DNA from: Kalymmatonema hyalinum WJT4-NPBG1
GTDB taxonomy: Bacteria; Cyanobacteriota; Cyanobacteriia; Cyanobacteriales; Nostocaceae
Direction of reading: 5' to 3'
Length of the DNA stretch: 61,506 nucleotides
NCBI GenBank assembly: GCA_019359075.1
Contig: JAHHIB010000050.1
Coordinates: forward strand, 1 to 61,506
Part shown: positions 48,919-59,935 of the stretch, one piece after another
Position numbering within the stretch: the stretch's first letter is position 1
Layout of the letters: the number at the start of each line of letters is the position of its first letter
Notes under the pieces: generated by a model
The model's database searches: none
Told to the model about the DNA's origin: nothing
The model's input: only the letters and a program-made list of their open reading frames with translations
Program-made: the position numbers and the translations under genes

Positions 48919-49007
48919 GAGTATGGAGTTGGCTTGATTGAATCAACCTATGGTTACGATTCAGTTTGCAATTCACCACTCAATCAGTCAGAACAGGAGA
49001 GAGTAAT

Positions 49008-50162
49008 TTGGCAATTCATTTAGCAGAAAAACCAATCTTTGTCATCGGTCCAGAGCGATCGGGAACCACATTGCTCATGACCATGCTTGGCAGCCACCCT
49101 CGGATTTCGGTTCCCGAAGTTGCCTGGTTGTATCCCAGGTTTTATCCTTACCTCCATACCTATGGAGACTTGAGGCAGACAAAAAACCTGCGGGTTTTGG
49201 CAGAAGAAATGATCTTCGGTTTGAAGACTCCTTTTTGGGGATTAGACGTTAACCCCAGAACAGTGGTTGATGACATTCTCTCCTTGCTGCAAGAACAAAG
49301 CTTTGCTGGAGTCTATAGTGCCATGCTGGAATGGTACGCTAAGCATGAAGAAAAACCGCGTTGGGGAGAGAAGACACCCTATAACTTATTCTTCATTGAT
49401 GCGATCGTAAGAGACTTTCCCAACGCTCAATTCATCTACTTAATTCGTGATGGTAGAGATGCCAGTGCGGAATATCTAGAGTCTGCATTTGGTCCAACAA
49501 ATATTTACTGTGCAGCAACGATTTGGAAACTCTGTCAAGACGCTGTAAAACCCTGGCGTGAGCAACTCGCTCCAACTCAATGGCTCGATGTTTCGTATGA
49601 AACATTAGTTCGTGAACCAGAGGCCGTCTTAGACAAAGTTTGTCATTTTTTGGCAGAAGACTACAACTCGGAAATGTTGGCATTTTACAAATCAAACATT
49701 GCACAGCGCAGAGCAACAACCAAAGATCACAAACCGCTTGGGCAACCAGTCAGCGATCGCTACATCGGTATTTATAAAAACTTACTGAGTCTGCGCGATC
49801 AACAAATCTTTGCAGCGGTTGCTGGAGAAGAATTAACGGCTCTGGGCTATGACGTGGAAGTTGAACCACTCCATCTCGCTCAAGAACAGAAGGAGCTGTA
49901 TATCGAGTTGGATGGCAGAATTCGGGCAGCAACACTGGATGCCCCGGAAGGTCACATTGTTTATGAAAGCTACAACGATTGGTTAAGCGATCGCCGCGAG
50001 GACCGGAAGAAAAAAGGAATCTGGGATGAACCTCAGCCGTGGTCACTGTTCTCTCAAGGGCAGTTCTATGAAGAGCTAATTACTGGTCAGCGGGCTTGGA
50101 GAAAGTGGAAGGATTACTTTGGTGTCAAACGCCAGTATGTCAGTAATGATGTTGTGCTTTGA
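49008..50162 (+). CDS. Sulfotransferase
   Basis: The start TTG 49008 (behind AGGAGAG) is preferred to TTG 48966 for its ribosome site. The 384-residue protein has the PAPS 5'-phosphosulfate loop FVIGPERSGTTLLMTMLGSHP near the N-terminus. It has the 3'-phosphate motif FIYLIRDGRDASAEYLES about 130 residues later. The family transfers sulfate from PAPS to hydroxyl or amino groups. It is followed immediately by the transporter ATPase, so it belongs to the organosulfur operon. A donor enzyme in an import operon is unexpected; it may modify, or work in reverse on, the imported compound. Confidence 0.85.
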   Translation: MAIHLAEKPIFVIGPERSGTTLLMTMLGSHPRISVPEVAWLYPRFYPYLHTYGDLRQTKNLRVLAEEMIFGLKTPFWGLDVNPRTVVDDILSLLQEQSFAGVYSAMLEWYAKHEEKPRWGEKTPYNLFFIDAIVRDFPNAQFIYLIRDGRDASAEYLESAFGPTNIYCAATIWKLCQDAVKPWREQLAPTQWLDVSYETLVREPEAVLDKVCHFLAEDYNSEMLAFYKSNIAQRRATTKDHKPLGQPVSDRYIGIYKNLLSLRDQQIFAAVAGEELTALGYDVEVEPLHLAQEQKELYIELDGRIRAATLDAPEGHIVYESYNDWLSDRREDRKKKGIWDEPQPWSLFSQGQFYEELITGQRAWRKWKDYFGVKRQYVSNDVVL

Positions 50163-51059
50163 GTGAGCCCTATAACCGCAGCAACTAAAATGGCTTTCAA
50201 AAAATTTCCGATCGCTGCTTATGCTTGCCCCGAAACTGCCCCACTTCAGCCGTTCCAGCAGCATGAAGCTGAAATAACGCAGGGACAGATTAGCCTTAAA
50301 AACGTAACGGTTTCCTTCCAACGCCGCCATCAGAAAGTCACTGCGGTTGAAAACGTTAATCTGGATATCAAAGCGGGTGAATTTGTGGCGCTTCTGGGCG
50401 CTTCTGGGTGTGGTAAATCAACCTTGCTGAACGCGATCGCTGGCATTGTCAAGCCAACGGAAGGTAGCATCTGGATCGATCACCAGCAGGTGACTGAACC
50501 CAATCCTGCTTGTGGCGTTGTTTTTCAGCATCACTCGCTGTTTCCCTGGATGACCGTACTGCAAAATGTGTCCTTTGGTCCTAAAATGCTTGGTTTTCCA
50601 GCTGCCAGATCAGTTGGAATGCAGTTCCTCACATTAGTTGGGTTGGAGAAATTTAAGAACTATTATCCGTCCATGCTTTCGGGTGGAATGCAGCAACGGG
50701 TTGGCATTGCTAGAGCGCTCGCAACACAACCACCAGTGTTACTGATGGATGAACCCTTTGGTGCTCTGGATGCTCAAACTCGCAGCATCATGCAGGAAGA
50801 GCTCTTGAAAATATGGACAACGTTCAAAACAACGGTTGTGTTTGTCACCCATGACATTGATGAAGCCATATTCTTATCAGACCGGATTTGCATTATGCGA
50901 TCGACCCCCGGTTCTATTAAAGAAGAAGTCATGGTTGATCTCGATCGTCCTCGCTTGCCCGACGTGATGCTGACAGAACAATACATCAAAGTGCGAAAGA
51001 AAGTTCTAGCGGCAATTAGGCAAGAAAGTTTGAAATCATTTAACCATCAATCGCATTGA
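50163..51059 (+). CDS. Sulfonate/nitrate-type ABC transporter ATPase (SsuB/TauB-like)
   Basis: This 298-residue ATPase has Walker [10 protein letters not shown] (about 79-87), signature [15 protein letters not shown] (about 175-189) and Walker [16 protein letters not shown], followed by [16 protein letters not shown]. The sequence is of the SsuB/TauB/NrtD group, which drives uptake of sulfonates, taurine or nitrate. GTG 50163 abuts the sulfotransferase stop; ATG 50190 is an alternative. Neither has a strong ribosome site, so coupling is likely. The permease starts 12 bp after its end. Confidence 0.93.
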
Positions 51060-51071
51060 AAGGGTAGACAA

Positions 51072-51872
51072 ATGCGCTCTCTAGTGTGGCCTCTAAAAAC
51101 AATTCCTCCAACTCTATCAACAAATTTTCGATGGTTGGTCATCAGCCTCGTTTCGTTTCTACTTTTGTGGGGTACTGTCTCTCTACTGCTGAATGAACCA
51201 ACCTTGCTGCCAACCCCTTGGGAAGTATTCATTGGCTTCTTCAACCTGATAAAAGATGGACAATTATTAACGGATATTCAAGCCAGTTTACAGCGTGTAT
51301 TTATTGGTTTTTTTATCGCTAGTTGTCTTGCCGTTCCGTTGGGCATTATTCTTGCCTACTTTTATATTCCCAGACAAATCTTATTGCCGATTATCACCAT
51401 CCTGAGACCTATTCCTCCGATCGCCTGGATTCCATTAGCGATCTTGTGGTTTGGCATCGGTGATTCATCGAGCTACTTTATTACTGCACTTGCCGCATTT
51501 TTTCCCATCTTCATCAATTCGTTTGCGGGAGGAAAAGCCGTTGAGCATCAACATATCAACGCAGCGAAATGTTTAGGAGCCAGAAGATTTTCATTAGTGA
51601 CCACGATTTTTCTACCGTCTGCAATGCCCCAAGTCTGGGCAGGTTTGCGGATCGGTTTAGGACAGTCTTGGATGGCAGTTGTGACATCTGAATTGATTGC
51701 GGCTCAGTCGGGTTTAGGGTACATGATTCAGGCAAATCGACTCAATCTTGAAACCAGCTATGTGCTGGTAGGGATGGTGGTGATTGGCATTTTGGGATCG
51801 TCGATGAATGCGGCATTGGGGTATATCGAGCAATACGTCATTCCCTGGAAGCCAGAATATCTGCATGGATAG
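51072..51872 (+). CDS. Sulfonate/nitrate-type ABC transporter permease (SsuC/TauC-like)
   Basis: This 266-residue permease has about six membrane helices. The EAA loop region reads GGKAVEHQHINAAKCLGARRFSLV, the site where the ATPase docks. RPIPPIAWIPLAILWFGIG is typical of SsuC/TauC. It is cotranscribed with the ATPase, 12 bp upstream, and overlaps the PPOX gene by eight bases. Confidence 0.93.
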   Translation: MRSLVWPLKTIPPTLSTNFRWLVISLVSFLLLWGTVSLLLNEPTLLPTPWEVFIGFFNLIKDGQLLTDIQASLQRVFIGFFIASCLAVPLGIILAYFYIPRQILLPIITILRPIPPIAWIPLAILWFGIGDSSSYFITALAAFFPIFINSFAGGKAVEHQHINAAKCLGARRFSLVTTIFLPSAMPQVWAGLRIGLGQSWMAVVTSELIAAQSGLGYMIQANRLNLETSYVLVGMVVIGILGSSMNAALGYIEQYVIPWKPEYLHG

Positions 51873-52482
51873 CTCACTCATTACAACCCTTGCTGATTTA
51901 CGCAGGATTTATGGTTATCCTTCTGAGCGTGCTCAACGAAAATGCCTCGATTATCTTGACGTTCATTGTCGTAACTTGATTGCTGCTGCCCCATTTTTGG
52001 TGATTGCTTCCTCTCATCGTTGTGGCGCAGCCGATGTCTCACCGCGTGGAGATACTCCTGGCTTTGTGCGTGTGCTGAATGACAAAACGCTGTTGATTCC
52101 TGACCGACCCGGTAATAATCGCCTTGATACCCTGGCCAACATTATTGAAAATCCAAATGTAGCGCTGCTGTTCTTGATTCCAGGGATGAATGAAACCTTG
52201 CGTGTGAATGGCACAGCAAAAATTACACAAGCTCCAGACTTGTTACTGTCCAGTGTCATACAGGGCAAAGTTCCCAAAACTGCAATTGTAGTCACGGTTG
52301 CGGAGGCGTTTCTTCACTGTGCCAAAGCACTGCTGCGCTCAAGGTTGTGGGACTCTACTACTCAAATTGAGCGATCGCAGTTTCCCAGTGCTGGACAAAT
52401 TCAAGCTGAGCAAATTGGAGGGCTAGATGTTGCTGCTGTAGAAGCAGAGATTGAAGAGCGAAACCGAACTCGACTCTATTAA
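51865..52482 (+). CDS. FMN-binding PPOX-type flavoprotein
   Basis: The start ATG 51865 overlaps the permease stop and gives 205 residues. The split-barrel fold has HRCGAADVSPRGDTPGFVRV (about 51-70) and LIPDRPGNNRLDTLANIIENP (about 76-96), typical of the MSMEG_1061-like pyridoxamine 5'-phosphate oxidase group that binds FMN. It then has ALLFLIPGMNETLRVNG. It may act in redox handling of the imported compound. Its place between permease and binding protein shows it belongs to the pathway. Confidence 0.8.
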   Translation: MDSSLITTLADLRRIYGYPSERAQRKCLDYLDVHCRNLIAAAPFLVIASSHRCGAADVSPRGDTPGFVRVLNDKTLLIPDRPGNNRLDTLANIIENPNVALLFLIPGMNETLRVNGTAKITQAPDLLLSSVIQGKVPKTAIVVTVAEAFLHCAKALLRSRLWDSTTQIERSQFPSAGQIQAEQIGGLDVAAVEAEIEERNRTRLY

Positions 52483-52516
52483 GCTTCCAAGACAATTATT
52501 GATTTAAGGACAAATT

Positions 52517-53551
52517 ATGGCTATCTCTCGTCGATCGCTGATGAAGCGACTCACCTACGCCCTGGTTCTGCCTTCTATTTCTTGTGTGTTTTTTGCTTGC
52601 GCTGGAACGCAATCTGCCAATAACCCCAGCAGCAATAATAAAACAGCTGCTGATGGCAACGCCGTGGTTGAAGTCAATCAGGCAGAAGGTAAAACCATTC
52701 CGATTCGGATTGCCTATCCTGCTGGTATGAATGGACAAATTGCCAAGGTAATGGAGAAGGCTAAAATTGCTGAAAAGAAAGGTTTGGAGGCAAAATACAC
52801 CTTTTTCCAGAATGGTCCACCGATGATGGAAGCCTTTGCCTCTGGCAACGTTGACACCGTGATCACCAGCCCAATGCCAGTGATTAACTTTATCTCTCGT
52901 AATCCTGGAAAAGCAGTTGTCGTAGCAAGTTTGGGAAATTCAAGCTACTCTCTCATGGTTCCAAACGGCAGCAGCATCAAACAAGCCAAGGATTTGCGAG
53001 GAAAAACGATCGCGCTCTCGTTTGGTTCTGACTCCCATCTTGACTTGCTCAGGCTTTTGAAAGAGTCCAATTTGAATCCAAAATCAGATGTGAAGCTGCT
53101 GAACACGCCACCGAATGAACTACAGCTAGCCTTTGAACGCGGATTTGCGGATGCGATCGTCATTCGACAACCTCAAGTGTTGAAGCTGCAGAAGAAGTTT
53201 AATGCTCAAATTATTCACACCTGGCCGCACCGCTATATTTCCGTCATGCGTACTGACTATCTAGAGAAACATCCTCAAGCTGAAAAGCAGTACCTTGAAG
53301 CATTACGAGATTCTATTCTGTTCACAGCAACCAACAAAGAACAAGCAAGCATCTGGTTCTCTGAACAAATTCGCCTTGATCCAGAAACCATTCGCCAAGT
53401 CTCAAAAGACGACCCAAATTATACAGTAACAAAACTGGAGGATGTGTCTGTAGAAGTCACACCAGCCATCCAACAAACCCTAGAAGATTGGGCTAAGTTT
53501 AGCTATGAGACTGGCATTACAAAAAAAGAGGTTTCCTGGAACTGGAAGTAA
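52517..53551 (+). CDS. ABC transporter substrate-binding lipoprotein, SsuA/NMT1-like
   Basis: This 344-residue periplasmic protein has a signal peptide with two arginines (SRRSLMKRL) and a lipobox near FFAC (about residue 28). The rest is a type 2 periplasmic binding fold of the nitrate/sulfonate/bicarbonate group. It has IRIAYPAGMNGQIAKVME, GNVDTVITSPMPVINFIS and LRGKTIALSFGSDSHLDLL. The next domain continues FADAIVIRQPQVLKLQ. A Ser/Asn linker follows the lipobox. It is the extracellular binding protein for the transporter at 50163-51872. The ligand is likely an organosulfonate or a similar anion. Confidence 0.92.
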   Translation: MAISRRSLMKRLTYALVLPSISCVFFACAGTQSANNPSSNNKTAADGNAVVEVNQAEGKTIPIRIAYPAGMNGQIAKVMEKAKIAEKKGLEAKYTFFQNGPPMMEAFASGNVDTVITSPMPVINFISRNPGKAVVVASLGNSSYSLMVPNGSSIKQAKDLRGKTIALSFGSDSHLDLLRLLKESNLNPKSDVKLLNTPPNELQLAFERGFADAIVIRQPQVLKLQKKFNAQIIHTWPHRYISVMRTDYLEKHPQAEKQYLEALRDSILFTATNKEQASIWFSEQIRLDPETIRQVSKDDPNYTVTKLEDVSVEVTPAIQQTLEDWAKFSYETGITKKEVSWNWK

Positions 53552-53640
53552 TTTTGACGGCAGATAAACCAGGGAAGTAATAACAAATGGCACTAACCGA
53601 ATCATTAATGACTAAACATTGTGGTTTACGTACCACCAAA

Positions 53641-55614
53641 TCATAAATTGCTCTTCTGTAAAAACTCTGGTTGAACCCAGTGATTCAAATCAATGGTCTT
53701 CAGATGCTCATTCCCTGGTATTTGACTGAGTTGATGAATGTGTAAATTCAACCAATCTGAACGCATAGCGGTTTCTGAAAAAAAGCGCCCAGGTTGGCTT
53801 TTTGGATCGGAGGTGCTTAAAATTTGAGCGATGATTTCAGTATCCACTCGTGTCCACTGGCTCACTAACCGAAGTGCAGCGGGTGTTCTGTCGTACCACT
53901 GTTGAGCAGCGGTTAACGCTTTCAAATAAGCAATCACAACTTCGGGATAGCAGTCTGCTAACTTGGCGCGAACCACTACTCCATAGAACACGGGCAAATT
54001 CTCTAAACGCTGGTCGGATAGATAGCGGAATTTTCCCTGGCGACAAGCGACATCAGGGAAGGGGGCAAAGTGAGCGTAGCCATCGGCTAAATGAATTGGG
54101 AACTCAAAGGCTTTAGCAGAATTCGGATGTTCGAGGGAAGCAAGGTGAACATTACTCAAAAGATTCGCCGCTTGTAGCGATCGCATCACCATACTGTGAG
54201 CGGAGGAATTGAAGGGAACGGCAAGCACCCGTCCACGCAAGTCTTCAAGGCTTTCCAGGTTCGATTGATTCGGCACAATCACTGCATTACAAGAACCATC
54301 GGGATTCGATGACACAAAGCTGACCAAACGAGTTTTTTGAGCGTCCGTCTGTTCTGGCTGCACAGCACTCAACAGCAATGGATAGTCACCCAAAATGCCG
54401 ATATCTAACTGTCCAGAATGCAGTTTCTCGACGATCGGTGCCCCTGTTGTCCAGTCTGACCAACGAATCTGATACCGAGTGGCACTATAGCGTCCGTCCT
54501 TTGGAAGGAAGTGTTCCAACAAACCTAACCGTTGCATGATGAGCCCTGCCGCGATCGCGGGAATCGTGCGATTTTGCACGCCAATGGATAACGTGAGCGT
54601 TTCCGGTTTGCGGGGATTGACATCATGCAGAAGAAAACTGGGCGATCGCAAGCGCACGGTTGAAGCAGAATCATCCGCATGATTGGACGGTTGAATTGAA
54701 GCAATAAATTTTTGAGCCGGATTGAGATGAGCTGCCTTGCGGGTTTTCAAGGTCGTTTCATTCAATGTATCGACTTGCTTTGATGTGAGTAGATAAACAT
54801 TTCCTGGTAAAGCAAATTCTTGCAACGGAATTGCAGCTAACGTTCCAGATTGACAATCCGATTTGAACTCAAACTCAGACGCAAAACCCAAATAATTTCC
54901 TTGAGTCATGTACGTTCGCATCAGGCTGATCGTATCAACCGTTTCGAGTCGGGGAAACTCTGCTAACGATAGCCCTAATTCTGCTAATCGAGACTCAAAC
55001 ACAAGACGACTGGGAGAACCCTCTGGCAAAATCACCCAGGGATCATTTTTCAAGTCTTGAATGCTTAACCAACGCTGCTTTGCGAGAGGATGATTGGAAG
55101 CAACAAAGGCAGAATAATGAATCGTATCAATGCACGTTGTCGTGATATCTGAAAGCCCATCAAAACTGACATCAGAAATTCCGATATCAACCTGATGATT
55201 GGTCATTGCTCGGTACAGAGATTCAACCGACTCGAACGTCATACATCGAGTCTGAATCTCAGGATGCTGTTGGCGATAGTTGAACAAAAGATTCGGTAGC
55301 CAGCCTTCAGCGATCGCCGTTGTGCAACCGATTTTGAGGCTGCCGACCTTGCCTTTTTTAATCTCCTCGATCGTTTGTAAAAGCTGATGCTCAAGCTGAA
55401 TTAATTTTGGGGCTTCTGCTAGCAAAAAGTGTCCTACTTCTGTGAGTTCAACTTTTCTTCCTAACCGATAAAACACAGGGGTTCCTAATTCAGATTCCAG
55501 CGATTTAATTTTGGCGCTGACGGCAGGCTGCGTCAGATTCAAGGCATCGGCTGCATCCGTAAAACTGAGGTGTCGAGCCACCTCTAGAAAAACTTTAATT
55601 TGATAAATTTCCAT
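53641..55614 (-). CDS. LysR regulator fused to an ABC substrate-binding domain
   Basis: This 657-residue protein is more than twice the length of a normal LysR. Residues 1-300 are a complete LysR: winged helix with LSFTDAADALNLTQPAVSAKIK and a co-inducer domain starting GSLKIGCTTA. After a linker (about 300-335) comes a second binding-protein-type domain of the nitrate/sulfonate SBP kind. Examples are TLSIGVQNRTIPAIAAGLIMQRLGLLEHF, GAPIVEKLHSGQLDIGILGDYPLLL, LEDLRGRVLAVPFNSSAHSMVM and CYPEVVIAYLKALTAAQQW. No signal peptide is present, so this SBP domain is cytoplasmic. It is divergent from the AprA-like gene and convergent with the SBP gene. It probably senses the imported ligand or a product. 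Confidence 0.92.
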   Translation of the reverse strand: MEIYQIKVFLEVARHLSFTDAADALNLTQPAVSAKIKSLESELGTPVFYRLGRKVELTEVGHFLLAEAPKLIQLEHQLLQTIEEIKKGKVGSLKIGCTTAIAEGWLPNLLFNYRQQHPEIQTRCMTFESVESLYRAMTNHQVDIGISDVSFDGLSDITTTCIDTIHYSAFVASNHPLAKQRWLSIQDLKNDPWVILPEGSPSRLVFESRLAELGLSLAEFPRLETVDTISLMRTYMTQGNYLGFASEFEFKSDCQSGTLAAIPLQEFALPGNVYLLTSKQVDTLNETTLKTRKAAHLNPAQKFIASIQPSNHADDSASTVRLRSPSFLLHDVNPRKPETLTLSIGVQNRTIPAIAAGLIMQRLGLLEHFLPKDGRYSATRYQIRWSDWTTGAPIVEKLHSGQLDIGILGDYPLLLSAVQPEQTDAQKTRLVSFVSSNPDGSCNAVIVPNQSNLESLEDLRGRVLAVPFNSSAHSMVMRSLQAANLLSNVHLASLEHPNSAKAFEFPIHLADGYAHFAPFPDVACRQGKFRYLSDQRLENLPVFYGVVVRAKLADCYPEVVIAYLKALTAAQQWYDRTPAALRLVSQWTRVDTEIIAQILSTSDPKSQPGRFFSETAMRSDWLNLHIHQLSQIPGNEHLKTIDLNHWVQPEFLQKSNL

Positions 55615-55733
55615 ATTTTTTTGAGCTGCGATCGCTCATGTTTAATCAACTCAATTTGTGCATCGAATTATTTTATCAGGTTATAGAAGGTATGAATAGA
55701 TAATGAGTTACATTTGTCGCAAAATAGAATCAG

Positions 55734-55799
55734 GCTGAGCTGGATTGATCAAACGACATGATGAACAGCTCAGCTCATGAGTTGTAACGAGGCTGAGCT
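55734..55799. promoter_or_regulatory. Candidate operator region of the LysR-SBP regulator
   Basis: GCTGAGCT (55734-55741) and its complement AGCTCAGC (55767-55774) form an inverted repeat; a third copy of GGCTGAGCT stands at 55791-55799. The LysR-SBP gene starts at 55614 and the AprA-like gene at 55888, so this is the divergent promoter. The T-N11-A motif of LysR boxes was not separately settled. Confidence 0.45.
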
Positions 55800-55887
55800 A
55801 TTCAAGCCAGTCACCAAAATATTCCCTAAAGCTTTCAATTTCATTGTTCAATTAAACGTTTTTCTGAGTTCAACAGAGGAGTTCTAC

Positions 55888-57603
55888 GTGAGTACTCAAG
55901 TGACTACTCAATGGATGAAGACGGATGTTCTTGTCATTGGTGGCGGCACTGCTGGAACAATGGCTGCCATTAAAGCGAGACAAGCAAATCCTGAAGCCGA
56001 TGTGCTGATTTTGGAGAAGGCAAACATCCGTCGCAGTGGCGCGATCGCAATGGGGATGGATGGTGTCAACACAGCGGTGATTCCCGGTCATTCCACACCG
56101 GAACAGTACACCCGCGAAGTCACGATCGCCAACGATGGCATTCTCGACCAGAAAGCGGTTTATCAAACGGGCAAGCTAGGTTTTGATGTAATTCAAGAGC
56201 TGGAAAGCTGGGGCGTAAAGTTCCAGAAAGATCCCCAAGGCAACTATGATCTGAAGCAAGTGCATCGGGTGGGCAAATATGTGTTGCCGATGCCAGAAGG
56301 CAAAGACTTGAAAACTATTCTGACTCGACAGGTGAAACGGCATAAAGCCAGAGTTACTAATCGCGTTATGGCAACCCGTGTGTTGGTGCAAGATGGACGG
56401 GCGATCGGAGCAGTTGGGTTTGATGTTCGCAATGGTGACTTCATTGTGATTCAAGCCAAAGCGGTGGTTCTCTGCACTGGGGCTTGCGGACGGTTAGGGC
56501 TTCCGGCTTCTGGATACCTTTATGGTACTTATGAAAACCCCACTAATGCAGGCGACGGCTACTCGATGGCCTACCATGCTGGAGCCGAACTGAGCAACAT
56601 CGAATGCTTTCAGATCAATCCCCTGATCAAAGACTACAACGGGCCTGCTTGCGCTTATGTTGCAGGTCCGCTGGGTGCTCAAACGGTCAATGCAGAAGGC
56701 TACCGCTTCATTAATTGCGATTACTGGAGTGGTCAAATGATGCTGGAAGTTTGGAAGGAACTGAATTCCGGCAAAGGACCCATCCAGCTAAAAATGACGC
56801 ACCTGGATGACGACACGATCGCTGAAATTGAATCGGTTTTATGGGCAAATGAACGCCCTAGTCGTGAACGCTTTCATGCAGGTCGAGGGGAAAACTACCG
56901 CACTCATGGTGTGGAAATGAATATCTCTGAGATTGGCTTGTGCAGTGGTCATAGTGCATCGGGTGTGTGGGTGAATGAAAAAGCTGAAACGACTATGCCT
57001 GGTCTCTACGCAGCCGGAGATATGGCAGGTGTACCCCACAATTACATGATTGGCGCATTTGTGTTTGGTCGTCTGGCAGGAGAGAACGCGATCGACTACA
57101 TCCAAGATTTAGATTACCTTGAGCCTGATCCAGAGTTTCTAGAGACAGAAAAAGCCAGAATCTACGCCCCTCTCAACCAATCCAATGGCATCCCTCATAC
57201 TCAGGTGGAATATAAGCTGCGGCGACTTGTAAATGACTACTTGCAACCGCCCAAAGTGAGCCAGAAGATGGAAATTGGCTTGCAAAACTTTGTTCGTTAT
57301 CAAGAAACCCTGGAATTAATGGGTGCCCGTGATCCGCACGAATTAATGCGCTGTATGGAAGTTCATTTCATTCGCGATTGTGCCGAAATGGCAGCTCGTG
57401 CTTCCCTTTACCGTCGTGAAAGTCGCTGGGGATTGTATCACTACCGTTTAGATTATCCCGAAAAGAACAATGAAGAATGGTTCTGCCACGTCAACTTGAA
57501 AAAGAATGAGTCTGGTGAAATGGTGCTGTTCAAGCGTCCTGTTAATCCATACGTTGTTGAAGTAGATGTCAACAGAGAAGTCTACGACGTTGCAACCCGA
57601 TAA
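55888..57603 (+). CDS. Adenylylsulfate-reductase-alpha-like FAD oxidoreductase
   Basis: The start GTG 55888 (behind AGAGGAG) gives 571 residues; ATG 55777 is less likely. This is a flavoprotein of the fumarate reductase/AprA superfamily. VLVIGGGTAGTMAAIKAR (about 14-31) binds the ADP part of FAD. NIRRSGAIAMGMDGVNT follows, similar to AprA. Further FAD contacts are at AVVLCTGACGRL and GLYAAGDMAGVPHNYMIGAFVFGRLAGENA. It is paired with a 2x[4Fe-4S] ferredoxin, as AprA is with AprB. Whether it acts on adenylylsulfate is doubtful, since no ATP sulfurylase or Qmo genes are here. An organosulfur substrate is a better guess. Confidence 0.75.
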   Translation: MSTQVTTQWMKTDVLVIGGGTAGTMAAIKARQANPEADVLILEKANIRRSGAIAMGMDGVNTAVIPGHSTPEQYTREVTIANDGILDQKAVYQTGKLGFDVIQELESWGVKFQKDPQGNYDLKQVHRVGKYVLPMPEGKDLKTILTRQVKRHKARVTNRVMATRVLVQDGRAIGAVGFDVRNGDFIVIQAKAVVLCTGACGRLGLPASGYLYGTYENPTNAGDGYSMAYHAGAELSNIECFQINPLIKDYNGPACAYVAGPLGAQTVNAEGYRFINCDYWSGQMMLEVWKELNSGKGPIQLKMTHLDDDTIAEIESVLWANERPSRERFHAGRGENYRTHGVEMNISEIGLCSGHSASGVWVNEKAETTMPGLYAAGDMAGVPHNYMIGAFVFGRLAGENAIDYIQDLDYLEPDPEFLETEKARIYAPLNQSNGIPHTQVEYKLRRLVNDYLQPPKVSQKMEIGLQNFVRYQETLELMGARDPHELMRCMEVHFIRDCAEMAARASLYRRESRWGLYHYRLDYPEKNNEEWFCHVNLKKNESGEMVLFKRPVNPYVVEVDVNREVYDVATR

Positions 57604-57650
57604 ATAATTCATCAATTCAATAATCACTCACAACAGGAGTTTTTGATCGG

Positions 57651-57878
57651 ATGGCATTCATCAATCAACGAGTCGATGTTCCCGTCACTGTGGATGAATC
57701 AAAGTGTTTGGAGAAATGCACAGCCTGCATCGAAGTTTGCCCCCTAGATGTGTTAGCCAAGAATCCCGAAACAGGCAAAGCCTACATGAAATACGACGAG
57801 TGCTGGTTCTGTCTCCCCTGCGAAAAGGAATGCCCTACAGGAGCCATCACCGTCCAAATTCCATTCCTATTGCGCTAG
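57651..57878 (+). CDS. 2x[4Fe-4S] ferredoxin, AprB-like
   Basis: This 75-residue protein has both cluster-binding motifs: CLEKCTACIEVCP (first) and CWFCLPCEKECP (second). Sequence around them (VCPLDVLAKNPETGKAYMKYDECW) resembles the ferredoxin part of adenylylsulfate reductase beta. It lacks AprB's long C-terminal tail. It is the likely electron carrier for the flavoprotein 48 bp upstream. AGGAG stands close before the ATG. Confidence 0.9.
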   Translation: MAFINQRVDVPVTVDESKCLEKCTACIEVCPLDVLAKNPETGKAYMKYDECWFCLPCEKECPTGAITVQIPFLLR

Positions 57879-57888
57879 AGGAGTGTCT

Positions 57889-58863
57889 ATGCCTGCAAAT
57901 ATCGACTCTGAACTGAATCAATGGCTAAAGCTGCTGCGATCACCTAACGAAAGCGATCGCCTGGTTGCCGTCAAAACTTTACAGCATTTAGGTGATGAGG
58001 ATGCTCTGGAACCTTTGATCACCGCCCTGAAAGACGAGAGTATCACGGTGCAAAAGTTAGCAGTGACGGCTCTGTGGGAATTGGCAAACCCTGCTGTTGT
58101 TCCAGCCCTAATCCAATGTCTGGCATCACCGGATGAAGAGATTCGAGACGAAGCGCGATCGGCCCTGGGAGAATTAGTGTCTCCCGATCATCTGCTGTTA
58201 CTGCTAGATGCATTGCAACAAGAGAACGTCAGTCTGCAACTGAGTGTGCTGTTTCTGCTGCGAAAGATTCATGACGTGCAGTCCTTACCCTATATTCTGC
58301 CGTTTTTTAAATCAGACAGGGCAGAGTTACGAGAAGCTGCTGTCACCACGCTGCGCTATCTGAATCAGGTGAAACAGTGCCCATCTGCGATCGCCCTTCT
58401 GTCCGATCCAGACCCAGCAGTCCGACGTTCAGCCACATTGACATTGGGACACTTAGCAGATGCGGATGTTGTTTCTGTCCTTTGTCACGCTCTGACTAAC
58501 GATGCGGATTGGCAAGTGCGCCGCAATGCGGCCAAATCCTTAGCACTACACGCTAATCCAACGGCTGTATCTGCTTTGGAAATGGCATTAGCAGATTGTC
58601 ACTGGCAGGTGCGAAAGTTTGCCCTGCAAGCTCTGCAAAAAACACCCGATGATCGCACCTTACCCGCTTTAATTCAAGCTCTCACCGATGAATATTCCGA
58701 TGTCCGTCGAGATGCCGCGATCGCTCTCGGTGCGTTGAAAAATTCAGCCGCTCTGAATGCACTTCAGCAAGCCTTAGATGATCCGGATCGAGATGTCTGC
58801 ATCTACACTCAACGGGCAATTAAGTCGATTCAGGAATCCTTGCAGGAACACTCCAATGCCTAA
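57889..58863 (+). CDS. HEAT-repeat (PBS lyase-like) protein
   Basis: The start ATG 57889 (GAGGAG just upstream) gives 324 residues; GTG 57883 adds two. The protein consists of about nine HEAT-like repeats, with the pattern LVAVKTLQHLGDEDALEPLITAL and similar units (for example VRRNAAKSLALHANPTAVSAL). It has no other domain. HEAT scaffolds often hold partners or cofactor-assembly factors. Its place between the ferredoxin and the Mrp ATPase suggests a role in assembling the Fe-S oxidoreductase. The Mrp gene starts within its last codons. Confidence 0.9.
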   Translation: MPANIDSELNQWLKLLRSPNESDRLVAVKTLQHLGDEDALEPLITALKDESITVQKLAVTALWELANPAVVPALIQCLASPDEEIRDEARSALGELVSPDHLLLLLDALQQENVSLQLSVLFLLRKIHDVQSLPYILPFFKSDRAELREAAVTTLRYLNQVKQCPSAIALLSDPDPAVRRSATLTLGHLADADVVSVLCHALTNDADWQVRRNAAKSLALHANPTAVSALEMALADCHWQVRKFALQALQKTPDDRTLPALIQALTDEYSDVRRDAAIALGALKNSAALNALQQALDDPDRDVCIYTQRAIKSIQESLQEHSNA

Positions 58864-59935
58864 TTCGCAAACACTCTTTCAGCCCATCAATCCATCTACT
58901 GCTACACCAACTGATTCACTTGCAGAAACACGTAAACAAGAGGTTGTTCAGCACTTGAAGCAGGTAATTGAACCCATTCTTAAAAACGATATTGTTAGCC
59001 TGGGAATGGTGCGTAACTTGCGTGTTGTGGACGATTACATTTACCTGCGGCTCTACATTGGTCAGTATCAGCACCACTTCCAAGAACAGATTCAAGCAAC
59101 CTTATCCCCTCTATCCTGGTGCAAAAAGACCTATATTCAGCCTTGCACTATTCCGGGCGTGCGGACAACCCTGGCAATTTCGAGCGGCAAGGGAGGTGTG
59201 GGAAAGTCAACGGTGGCTGTGAATTTGGCAGCGGCTCTCAGTCTGCAAGGGGCAAAAGTAGGGTTGCTTGATGCCGACGTTTATGGCCCTAATGTGCCTC
59301 AAATGCTGGGATTAGGACACGCTGATGTACAGGTGATCGGTACCCCAAACGGGCAACGATTTCTACCATTGGAGGCGCATGGAATTAAAGTCATGTCCGT
59401 CGGACTGCTCGCCGAACCTGATCATCCTCTCGCCTGGCGTGGGCCTGTGCTGCACAAAATTGTGACCCAGTTTATTCAGCAAGTGGATTGGGGTGATTTG
59501 GATTATCTACTGATTGACCTACCTCCTGGAACCGGAGATGCCCAAATTACCATCATTCAAGAAAGCCCAATTTGCGGCGTCATTTTAGTGACCACTCCTC
59601 AGCAAGTCGCGATCGCTGATGTCCGTCGCAGTGTTCATATGTTTCGTCAGGTTGGTGTTCCAGTGCTTGGCGTTGTGGAAAACATGAGTTATCTGATTTG
59701 CAATCACAGTGGAAACGCTCTGCCGATTTTTGGTAATGGCGGCGGCACTCAGTTATCAACCGAACTTCGCACTCACCTACTGGGTCAAATTCCAATTGAG
59801 GCTCGTATCTGCACTGGGGGAGATATAGGAAAACCGTTAACACTGACTGATCCAAGCTCTGCGATCGCTCAGGTACTGACTCATGTTGCAGCCAATCTCG
59901 AAGCAACGTTTTGTTCCAGATCTAGCCTTGGTTGA
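58856..59935 (+). CDS. mrp: Mrp/NBP35-family P-loop ATPase with part of the Cys pair missing
   Basis: The start ATG 58856 overlaps the HEAT gene by eight bases and gives 359 residues. An N-terminal MIP18/DUF59-like region (about 20-100) is followed by the deviant Walker A GKGGVGKSTVAVNLAAAL (about 112-129). Then come DADVYGPNVPQML (switch I) and LLIDLPPGTGDAQIT (switch II). The Mrp/ApbC family carries and inserts Fe-S clusters using a CxxC near ENMSY. Here the motif is ENMSYLICNHSG, with only the first cysteine. The start is set by coupling. It likely supports the Fe-S proteins of the operon. Confidence 0.88.
   Translation: MPNSQTLFQPINPSTATPTDSLAETRKQEVVQHLKQVIEPILKNDIVSLGMVRNLRVVDDYIYLRLYIGQYQHHFQEQIQATLSPLSWCKKTYIQPCTIPGVRTTLAISSGKGGVGKSTVAVNLAAALSLQGAKVGLLDADVYGPNVPQMLGLGHADVQVIGTPNGQRFLPLEAHGIKVMSVGLLAEPDHPLAWRGPVLHKIVTQFIQQVDWGDLDYLLIDLPPGTGDAQITIIQESPICGVILVTTPQQVAIADVRRSVHMFRQVGVPVLGVVENMSYLICNHSGNALPIFGNGGGTQLSTELRTHLLGQIPIEARICTGGDIGKPLTLTDPSSAIAQVLTHVAANLEATFCSRSSLG

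Follow-up and report, generated by a model that had tools for sequence, protein, structure and literature searches.

The locus and its gene layout

In the contig of Kalymmatonema hyalinum WJT4-NPBG1 analyzed here (JAHHIB010000050.1; 61,506 nucleotides, hereafter the window), two plus-strand gene runs bring together a putative sulfonate-type ABC transporter and a flavoprotein–ferredoxin pair resembling AprA and AprB, the subunits of adenosine 5'-phosphosulfate (APS) reductase (Table 1). Run 1 (48966–53551) encodes, in this order, a sulfotransferase, an ABC ATPase, a permease, a PPOX flavoprotein and an SsuA-like binding protein; run 2 (55888–59935) encodes the AprA-like flavoprotein, a 75-aa ferredoxin, a HEAT protein and an Mrp ATPase. 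The two runs are separated by a minus-strand gene for a 657-aa protein, a complete LysR regulator with a C-terminal SsuA/NMT1-like domain, which gene the initial annotation had missed and which divides the set, so that the single operon proposed there has to be given up. All the genes named in that annotation were nevertheless recovered in profile searches, and the two overlaps it had pointed out—permease with PPOX, and HEAT with Mrp—are real, amounting to 8 bp each, with the PPOX and Mrp frames opening at ATG 51865 and ATG 58856, respectively. Both overlaps recur in a relative genome (G046), and the PPOX start was picked from the overlap common to the two. The ATPase gene begins directly behind the sulfotransferase stop, and 47 bp separate the flavoprotein gene from that of the ferredoxin. 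The alignment of relatives makes GTG 55888, preceded by AGAGGAG, the most likely start of the flavoprotein, in preference to ATG 55777. When 18 LysR–flavoprotein intergenic regions were aligned, visual inspection of the part displayed revealed no common operator.

Table 1. Features of the window locus (coordinates in nucleotides of the window)
Feature	Start	End	Strand	Basis and remarks
Canonical long SsuA-like binding protein, remnant	48551	48855	+	two fragments in different frames, one stop
Sulfotransferase (Sulfotransfer_3), accessory	48966	50162	+	PF13469, E 3e-37
ABC transporter ATPase	50163	51059	+	nearest SaoA, NtrCD and TauB models; below every curated cut-off shown
ABC transporter permease	51072	51872	+	nearest SaoP and TauC; below cut-offs
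FMN (flavin mononucleotide)-dependent PPOX-type flavoprotein, accessory	51865	52482	+	TIGR04025, 258 bits (cut-off 170)
SsuA-like substrate-binding protein of the accessory cassette	52517	53551	+	TIGR01728, 131.5 bits (cut-off 163.5 missed)
LysR regulator fused to SsuA/NMT1-like domain	53641	55614	-	HTH_1 5-61, LysR_substrate 88-280, NMT1_2 389-587
Divergent intergenic region, presumed promoters	55615	55887
AprA/PAPS-reductase-like FAD (flavin-adenine dinucleotide) flavoprotein, core	55888	57603	+	NCBIfam NF006131 (PRK08275), 1009.5 bits (cut-off 587)
AprB-like two-[4Fe-4S] ferredoxin, 75 aa, core	57651	57878	+	eight invariant Cys
HEAT-repeat protein, core	57883	58863	+	matches the HEAT half of NF010374 with 92 bits
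Mrp/ApbC-type Fe-S carrier ATPase with N-terminal FSCA domain	58856	59935	+	PF10609, PF01883

Conservation of the module across genomes

The gene set was followed in 80 named genome loci, which are the best-scoring 80 of at least 588 pattern-matching stretches in a collection of one genome per species and which, being a best-scoring set, lean toward close relatives (37 cyanobacterial and 43 non-cyanobacterial loci). Added to these were 14 neighborhoods of relatives, in 13 of which the flavoprotein gene is intact, as well as 13 annotated loci from PLSDB plasmids, with incomplete gene tables. All loci were scanned with profiles, and presence was counted anywhere in the locus at 100 bits (60 for the ferredoxin and 50 for DUF971), so that some of the permease and ATPase matches may belong to other transporters.

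The ferredoxin and the HEAT protein were each found in 38/38 of the non-cyanobacterial loci having at least 6 kb of downstream sequence; these loci likewise contained a GntR regulator (36), DUF971 (34), the ABC ATPase (34), the permease and a long SsuA-like protein (32 each) and an extra FdxA (9), Mrp being present in none and at least one of the three transporter genes lacking in 7. As to the 31 of the 37 cyanobacterial loci with at least 4.5 kb downstream, 30 had the ferredoxin, 30 the HEAT protein, 29 Mrp and none DUF971, the exceptions being L080, without ferredoxin and HEAT, and L078 and L082, without Mrp. The core homologues, which might have proved dispersed when gene order was compared across genomes, accordingly occur together in 68/69 loci with enough sequence, a degree of clustering that goes far beyond chance. 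The downstream ferredoxin lies within 300 bp of the flavoprotein in 59 of the 75 loci having one, with a widest gap of 3994 bp, and in Tsukamurella the flavoprotein and HEAT parts form one protein of ~890 aa, like that described by the NCBIfam model NF010374. On the strength of these counts and of that fusion, we define the core as flavoprotein, ferredoxin and HEAT protein, which core is usually joined by an SsuABC-like transporter and by an Fe-S assembly factor, namely Mrp in cyanobacteria and DUF971 in most other bacteria. To amend the initial annotation, the HEAT protein, Mrp or DUF971 and a regulator have to be reckoned with the common set.

Taxonomically, the 80 loci take in Prochlorococcus single cells as well as Pseudomonas, Paraburkholderia, Acinetobacter and a myxobacterial bin, and the flavoprotein exceeds its cut-off in 17/386 sampled genomes of the phylum. 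Two Prochlorococcus single-cell genomes (L098 and L099) contain the flavoprotein (74% identity), ferredoxin and HEAT genes together with the canonical transporter, and L098 has Mrp as well. In the relative G018 (L034:7491-8448) the flavoprotein and HEAT genes persist as fragments of a decayed copy. Genes intervene between flavoprotein and ferredoxin in several cyanobacterial loci, among them that of Nostoc edaphicum (L043:14995-21150), where the inserted genes are of the HAD, methyltransferase, GNAT and VOC types.

A search of the open literature, which leaves subscription journals mostly outside and does not establish that the cluster is unpublished, found no description of it among the papers listed; the one paper matched by the names of the two NCBIfam models concerns fungi. 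The plasmid copies with an annotated gene carry a generic complex-II name; we are dealing, that is, with a real and widely conserved module that has no fitting name and is filed as fumarate reductase.

Descent and active site of the flavoprotein

The window flavoprotein is a full member of NF006131 (residues 41–601 of the frame from 55777), a family that shares with NF010374 (PRK13800; 913 bits) the name of fumarate reductase/succinate dehydrogenase (FRD/SDH) flavoprotein subunit. In NF010374 a protein of this kind is fused with a HEAT domain like the one that a separate gene encodes in the window. That name is generic and misleading, since the catalytic motifs of SDH, FRD and NadB are not kept in the family: QFHPT, HY-MGG and GANRL-N, which we take to surround the catalytic residues of those enzymes, occur in four SDH rows and the NadB row of our alignment and in 0/12 family rows. 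With scores far below the cut-offs (TfrA 169, SDH 155 and NadB 116 bits) and a separate clade in addition, an identity as SDH, FRD or NadB was rejected; in particular, the active site did not match that of L-aspartate oxidase, in keeping with the AprA-like character proposed at the outset.

The next models were of another kind, namely NF005331, for proteins like the 3'-phosphoadenosine 5'-phosphosulfate (PAPS) reductase of Methanothermococcus thermolithotrophicus (MtPAPSR), with 323.7 bits (cut-off 557), and TIGR02061 aprA, with 196.1 bits (cut-off 641.75). In a 28-row tree—arbitrarily rooted, with long-branch warnings and odd composition in four rows—the 12 family rows formed one clade (support 100/100) that was joined to five PAPSR-like proteins (98/96), while five AsfA rows (100/100) and six SDH/NadB-type rows (99/97) stood apart. 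The predicted structure (mean predicted local distance difference test, pLDDT, 66.2; predicted template-modeling score 0.73; weak at the pocket) matched the MtPAPSR structure 8a8o best (template-modeling score, TM, 0.70; root-mean-square deviation, rmsd, 8.3 A), followed by the APS reductase 2fja, fumarate reductase ranking 5 and L-aspartate oxidase 49; the match of this model is an agreement in predicted fold only. To go by these comparisons, the AprA-like label is correct for the fold and for the descent, the family being the apparent sister of PAPS-reductase-like proteins.

The label does not extend to nucleotide binding. Because the structure model is weak, the pocket residues were judged from the sequence alignment only, with a numbering counted from codon 55897. 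The family and the PAPSR-like rows have in common Asn58 (= AprA Asn74), Lys245-Asp246 and His352. AprA Arg265, for its part, is replaced in the window by Leu243, which residue is invariant in sets of 14 and 22 aligned members and in 12/12 family rows. We take Arg265 to act in APS binding and presume a role for Asn74 likewise. Where MtPAPSR has its Lys-Arg-Ser, the family has the loop VH-x2-G-x-YVLPMP-x-G, which in the window reads G-K-Y-V-L-P-M-P, and an invariant Tyr212-Glu213 stands in place of the MtPAPSR Trp-Tyr pair. In the excerpt of PMC10322725 that covers these residues, the Trp-Tyr pair is named as FAD-binding and Lys-Arg-Ser as the PAPS contacts. From what is kept and what is changed, the FAD domain and the fold would be AprA-like and the substrate pocket rebuilt.

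The two scores and the nearest solved structure, an archaeal PAPS reductase, would favor an enzyme that truly reduces APS or PAPS, or one that runs AprAB backwards as a sulfite oxidizer. Both curated cut-offs are missed, however; the K-R-S loop and Arg265 are missing from 12/12 family rows; and the 13 plasmid loci, as far as their incomplete gene tables show, encode neither ATP sulfurylase nor APS kinase. Since the nucleotide-binding residues are gone, the protein is by sequence neither reductase, and we regard this alternative as very improbable. A contrast is offered by a plasmid operon of Ilyobacter polytropus (L158:5381-8860) that encodes a PAPSR-like flavoprotein and a ferredoxin along with APS kinase (cysC) and CysD, and that is likely a bacterial counterpart of the methanogen PAPS reductase.

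Ferredoxin, HEAT protein and probable Fe-S supply

The ferredoxin is 75–81 aa long across the family, and its eight Cys, together with Trp52 beside the fifth Cys, are invariant in 12/12 members. Its score with TIGR02060 aprB was 38.0 bits, below the cut-off of 135.65; among small subunits, the AprB 3gyx_B (E 7.5e-10) and the PAPSR beta subunit 8a8o_C (E 3.1e-8) came first. As in MtPAPSR and AprAB, then, the FAD subunit is accompanied by an adjacent, separate two-[4Fe-4S] subunit—the cofactors in our proteins being predicted from the ligands—and a Trp lies by the second cluster, placed like Trp42 of MtPAPSR, for which residue a role as electron carrier was proposed, along with an N5 attack on sulfur (PMC10322725, in the part cited). 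For APS reductase, an adduct at FAD N5 has been observed (PMC7662398). Unlike those two enzymes, the family has exchanged the nucleotide loop and Arg265 for residues of its own, and the module is coupled to a transporter rather than to sulfate activation.

The Fe-S supply seems to be encoded in the cluster as well. The window Mrp exceeds the Pfam cut-offs for both the NUBPL-type P-loop domain PF10609 (314.8 bits) and the FSCA domain PF01883 (35.9 bits) and misses that of the NCBIfam ApbC model (290 bits; cut-off 348); the next-best Mrp copy of the same genome is 52% identical over residues 122–374. DUF971 is the third domain of HCF101 (PMC7980591, excerpt), and CxCxxC was present in 11 of the 14 DUF971 matches examined. 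Compared with HCF101 and Mrp-ApbC, the window Mrp has FSCA and ParA, whereas DUF971 is a separate protein in most non-cyanobacterial clusters, so that the parts of HCF101 are split by taxon in the proportions given above.

Transporter, regulator and possible link to sulfur

For the binding proteins and the extra domain of the regulator, SsuA models are the nearest; for the ATPase and permease, those of Sao, nitrate and Tau. None of these proteins attains a cut-off, the scores against the cut-offs being 131.5/163.5 bits for SsuA_fam, 170/342 for TauC, 223/357 for TauB and 184.5/395 for SsuB. The transporter is of the Ssu/Tau type and differs from those systems both in these scores and in that the window cluster contains neither SsuD nor TauD, as the initial annotation had implied. 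The C-terminal part of the LysR fusion and the canonical transport binding protein share 33% identity, and a similar minus-strand fusion precedes the flavoprotein in 14/37 cyanobacterial loci, the matches in two Prochlorococcus being weak (~247 bits).

A pointer to sulfur is provided by genes of exporter type—TauE/SafE (PF01925) and YeiH-type (PF03601, annotated as YeiH or putative sulfate exporter). Of the 10 cyanobacterial loci of LysR type with at least 4.5 kb downstream, 7 have such genes behind Mrp (TauE in 6, YeiH-type in 7). One further locus, L073, whose type was not determined, has both, and PLSDB records place TauE-type genes near the Aquabacterium and Acinetobacter clusters. Between 1 and 4 sequences, of checked seed families, went into each of the TauE, YeiH and oxygenase profiles.

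A second pointer is the co-occurrence with SsuD. Among 60 relatives, the window genome included, SsuD was above its cut-off in 12/14 genomes with the flavoprotein versus 6/46 without (Fisher p 9e-7, kinship being ignored). Two genomes with the module, G046 and G056, have no SsuD above the cut-off, which circumstance suggests that the module is independent of SsuD and may not need it.

The accessory cassette and the apparent loss of the canonical transporter

The cassette of sulfotransferase, ATPase, permease, PPOX and binding protein was found, among the loci scanned, in only the window and G046 (L021), whose sulfotransferase is 90% identical to that of the window. At E<=1e-100 the sulfotransferase was detected in 1/386 genomes of the phylum, that of the window itself, G046 evidently lying outside the sample, and no PLSDB plasmid record covered 80% of it. 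This rarity ruled out the sulfotransferase and PPOX as core parts. The association of sulfonate-type uptake with the AprA/AprB-like enzyme, as first suggested, survives in many genomes, but with the sulfotransferase and PPOX reduced to rare accessories.

G046 has the accessory cassette next to the canonical transporter. In the window, the remnant in front of the sulfotransferase retains 82% and 81% identity to residues 269–325 and 321–368, respectively, of the L066 protein, the second fragment containing a TGA; no second permease or ATPase was matched within the window, and no intact canonical binding protein was found in its genome, which is 95% complete, so that a copy elsewhere is possible. 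Given the remnant and the single permease and ATPase, the window looks like a variant whose accessory transporter outlived the canonical one.

The sulfotransferase carries the PERSGTT and RDGRDA motifs and adjoins a transporter upstream of a PAPS reductase relative, an arrangement that would suit a PAPS loop specific to the window: running in reverse, the sulfotransferase would transfer to 3'-phosphoadenosine 5'-phosphate (PAP) the sulfo group that an imported sulfate ester carries, and the PAPS-reductase-like pair would free sulfite and return PAP. With the cassette confined to two genomes and the PAPS-binding loop missing, such a cycle is hardly credible.

Relation to the Asf system

A parallel in gene content is the arylsulfonate system AsfRABC of Pseudomonas putida S-313 and Cupriavidus metallidurans, in which a LysR regulator, a flavoprotein, a ferredoxin and a binding protein likewise occur together and which is linked to sulfonates (excerpts of PMC4267179 and, for AsfA of C. 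metallidurans, PMC2864759). The differences are nonetheless considerable, in that AsfA belongs to another family, with 23–27% identity and a separate clade, and AsfB has 108–111 aa. The AsfA of C. metallidurans, found by similarity in NC_007974.2, shares 27% identity with the window flavoprotein over 245 aa and 64% with a cyanobacterial protein of 535 aa from G008; we take its gene, in this unannotated record, to be Rmet_4334 by virtue of the replicon, the order of place and the AsfB-like partner. The known asfRABC system was consequently ruled out, AsfA representing a separate family of flavoproteins, to which cyanobacterial proteins belong as well. We know of no HEAT or Mrp/DUF971 partner for AsfRABC, although no search for one was made.

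AsfA-type genes were present in 4/37 cyanobacterial loci (L075, L076, L081 and L092), and in Sinorhizobium fredii one adjoins the cluster, with AsfA in pieces. Asf homologues occur also in other cyanobacterial genomes that have the module: AsfA/AsfB-type genes were located at L053:8643-10656, L055:7410-9449, L056:6456-8650 and L054:6280-8342, followed downstream by luciferase-type and TauD genes in L053 and by an NMT1-type binding protein in L055. The plasmids of Pseudomonas sp. MPC6 (L050:5566-13622) and bacterium NT-25 (L051:5564-13684) carry clusters of still another kind, in which a complex-II-like enzyme, fumarate hydratase and genes of the sulfite/sulfate-exporter type perhaps serve a sulfonated dicarboxylic acid.

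Together with SsuD, AsfAB is needed for aromatic sulfonates and is read, in the excerpt of PMC4267179, as an electron supplier during the oxygenation. By analogy, our flavoprotein and ferredoxin might feed an oxygenase encoded elsewhere, which idea the SsuD co-occurrence would favor, as would the several cyanobacterial and 7/38 other loci that lie near luciferase-type, TauD or AsfA genes. On the other side, the clusters themselves contained no luciferase-type or TauD-type match in any of the 38 non-cyanobacterial loci (such matches lying elsewhere in the locus in 7); G046 and G056 have the module without SsuD above the cut-off, other oxygenases not having been searched there; and the flavoprotein is not AsfA. 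We consider an electron-supply role unlikely on balance.

Proposed function

The function that we tentatively propose as the most likely, and to which we would give not quite an even chance, is that of an organosulfur-scavenging module in which sulfonate-like import is coupled to a reductive release of sulfite by the AprAB-like enzyme. The SsuABC-like transporter would import a sulfonate-like compound (R-SO3-), to be sensed by the LysR regulator, which carries a relative of the transporter's binding domain. In the cytosol, the FAD of the NF006131 flavoprotein would then receive electrons by way of the ferredoxin's clusters and conserved Trp, and its reduced N5 would attack the sulfur to form an FAD–sulfite adduct, from which sulfite and R-H would result. 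The sulfite, suggested as product by the adjoining exporter-type genes, would be assimilated and any surplus exported by the TauE/YeiH-type proteins where present. The HEAT protein may be a partner subunit or a scaffold, and Mrp or DUF971 may load the Fe-S clusters. The oxygen-free cleavage of an organosulfur compound suggested by the initial annotation thus appears plausible.

Several observations weigh against this proposal. On the side of the enzyme, the pocket is poorly modeled in the predicted structure; the ferredoxin's best PDB profile matches were not AprB but archaeal polyferredoxins (E down to 4.6e-18), in which several domains add up to one score; and, with an invariant Leu in the place of Arg265, which the PAPSR-like rows keep, the mechanism of AprA need not apply here. 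The reading of the related AsfAB pair as an electron supplier and not as the cleaving enzyme points in the same direction. On the side of the substrate, no transporter protein attains a substrate-specific cut-off, the ATPase and permease being as near to Sao and nitrate models as to Tau. Transporters of this class also carry other compounds. The exporter-type genes, moreover, are absent from L065, L066 and L093, which have the LysR fusion, from the 22 cyanobacterial loci without it (20 with at least 4.5 kb downstream) and, at 100 bits, from the 38 non-cyanobacterial loci, and the YeiH-type protein owes its role as putative sulfate exporter to annotation.

These latter points would equally accord with a substrate devoid of organic sulfur, in that some other small anion or a heterocycle would be imported and then reduced or oxidized by the flavoprotein; the GntR-UTRA regulators found outside the cyanobacteria give no pointer to sulfur, and the loss of Arg265 would fit as well. 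Since SsuA remains the best family for the binding proteins, exporter-type genes adjoin most LysR-type clusters, SsuD co-occurs and the sister group is a sulfur enzyme, we judge that alternative to be improbable.

Returning to the scavenging of organosulfur, the broader form of the proposal, which we put forward as possible though rather doubtful, is a widespread oxygen-independent reductive desulfurization of organic sulfonates, or of another organic sulfur oxyanion, by an AprAB-type enzyme with its nucleotide pocket rebuilt for an imported substrate, a dedicated HEAT subunit, an Fe-S loading factor of its own and, in some cyanobacteria, a regulator with a captured relative of the binding domain. 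The unit is small and complete enough for a test by expression of three genes. Should the proposal be true, a common route to the sulfur of organic sulfonates that dispenses with the oxygenases SsuD and TauD would have been overlooked, and the chemistry of APS reductase would reach beyond nucleotide substrates.

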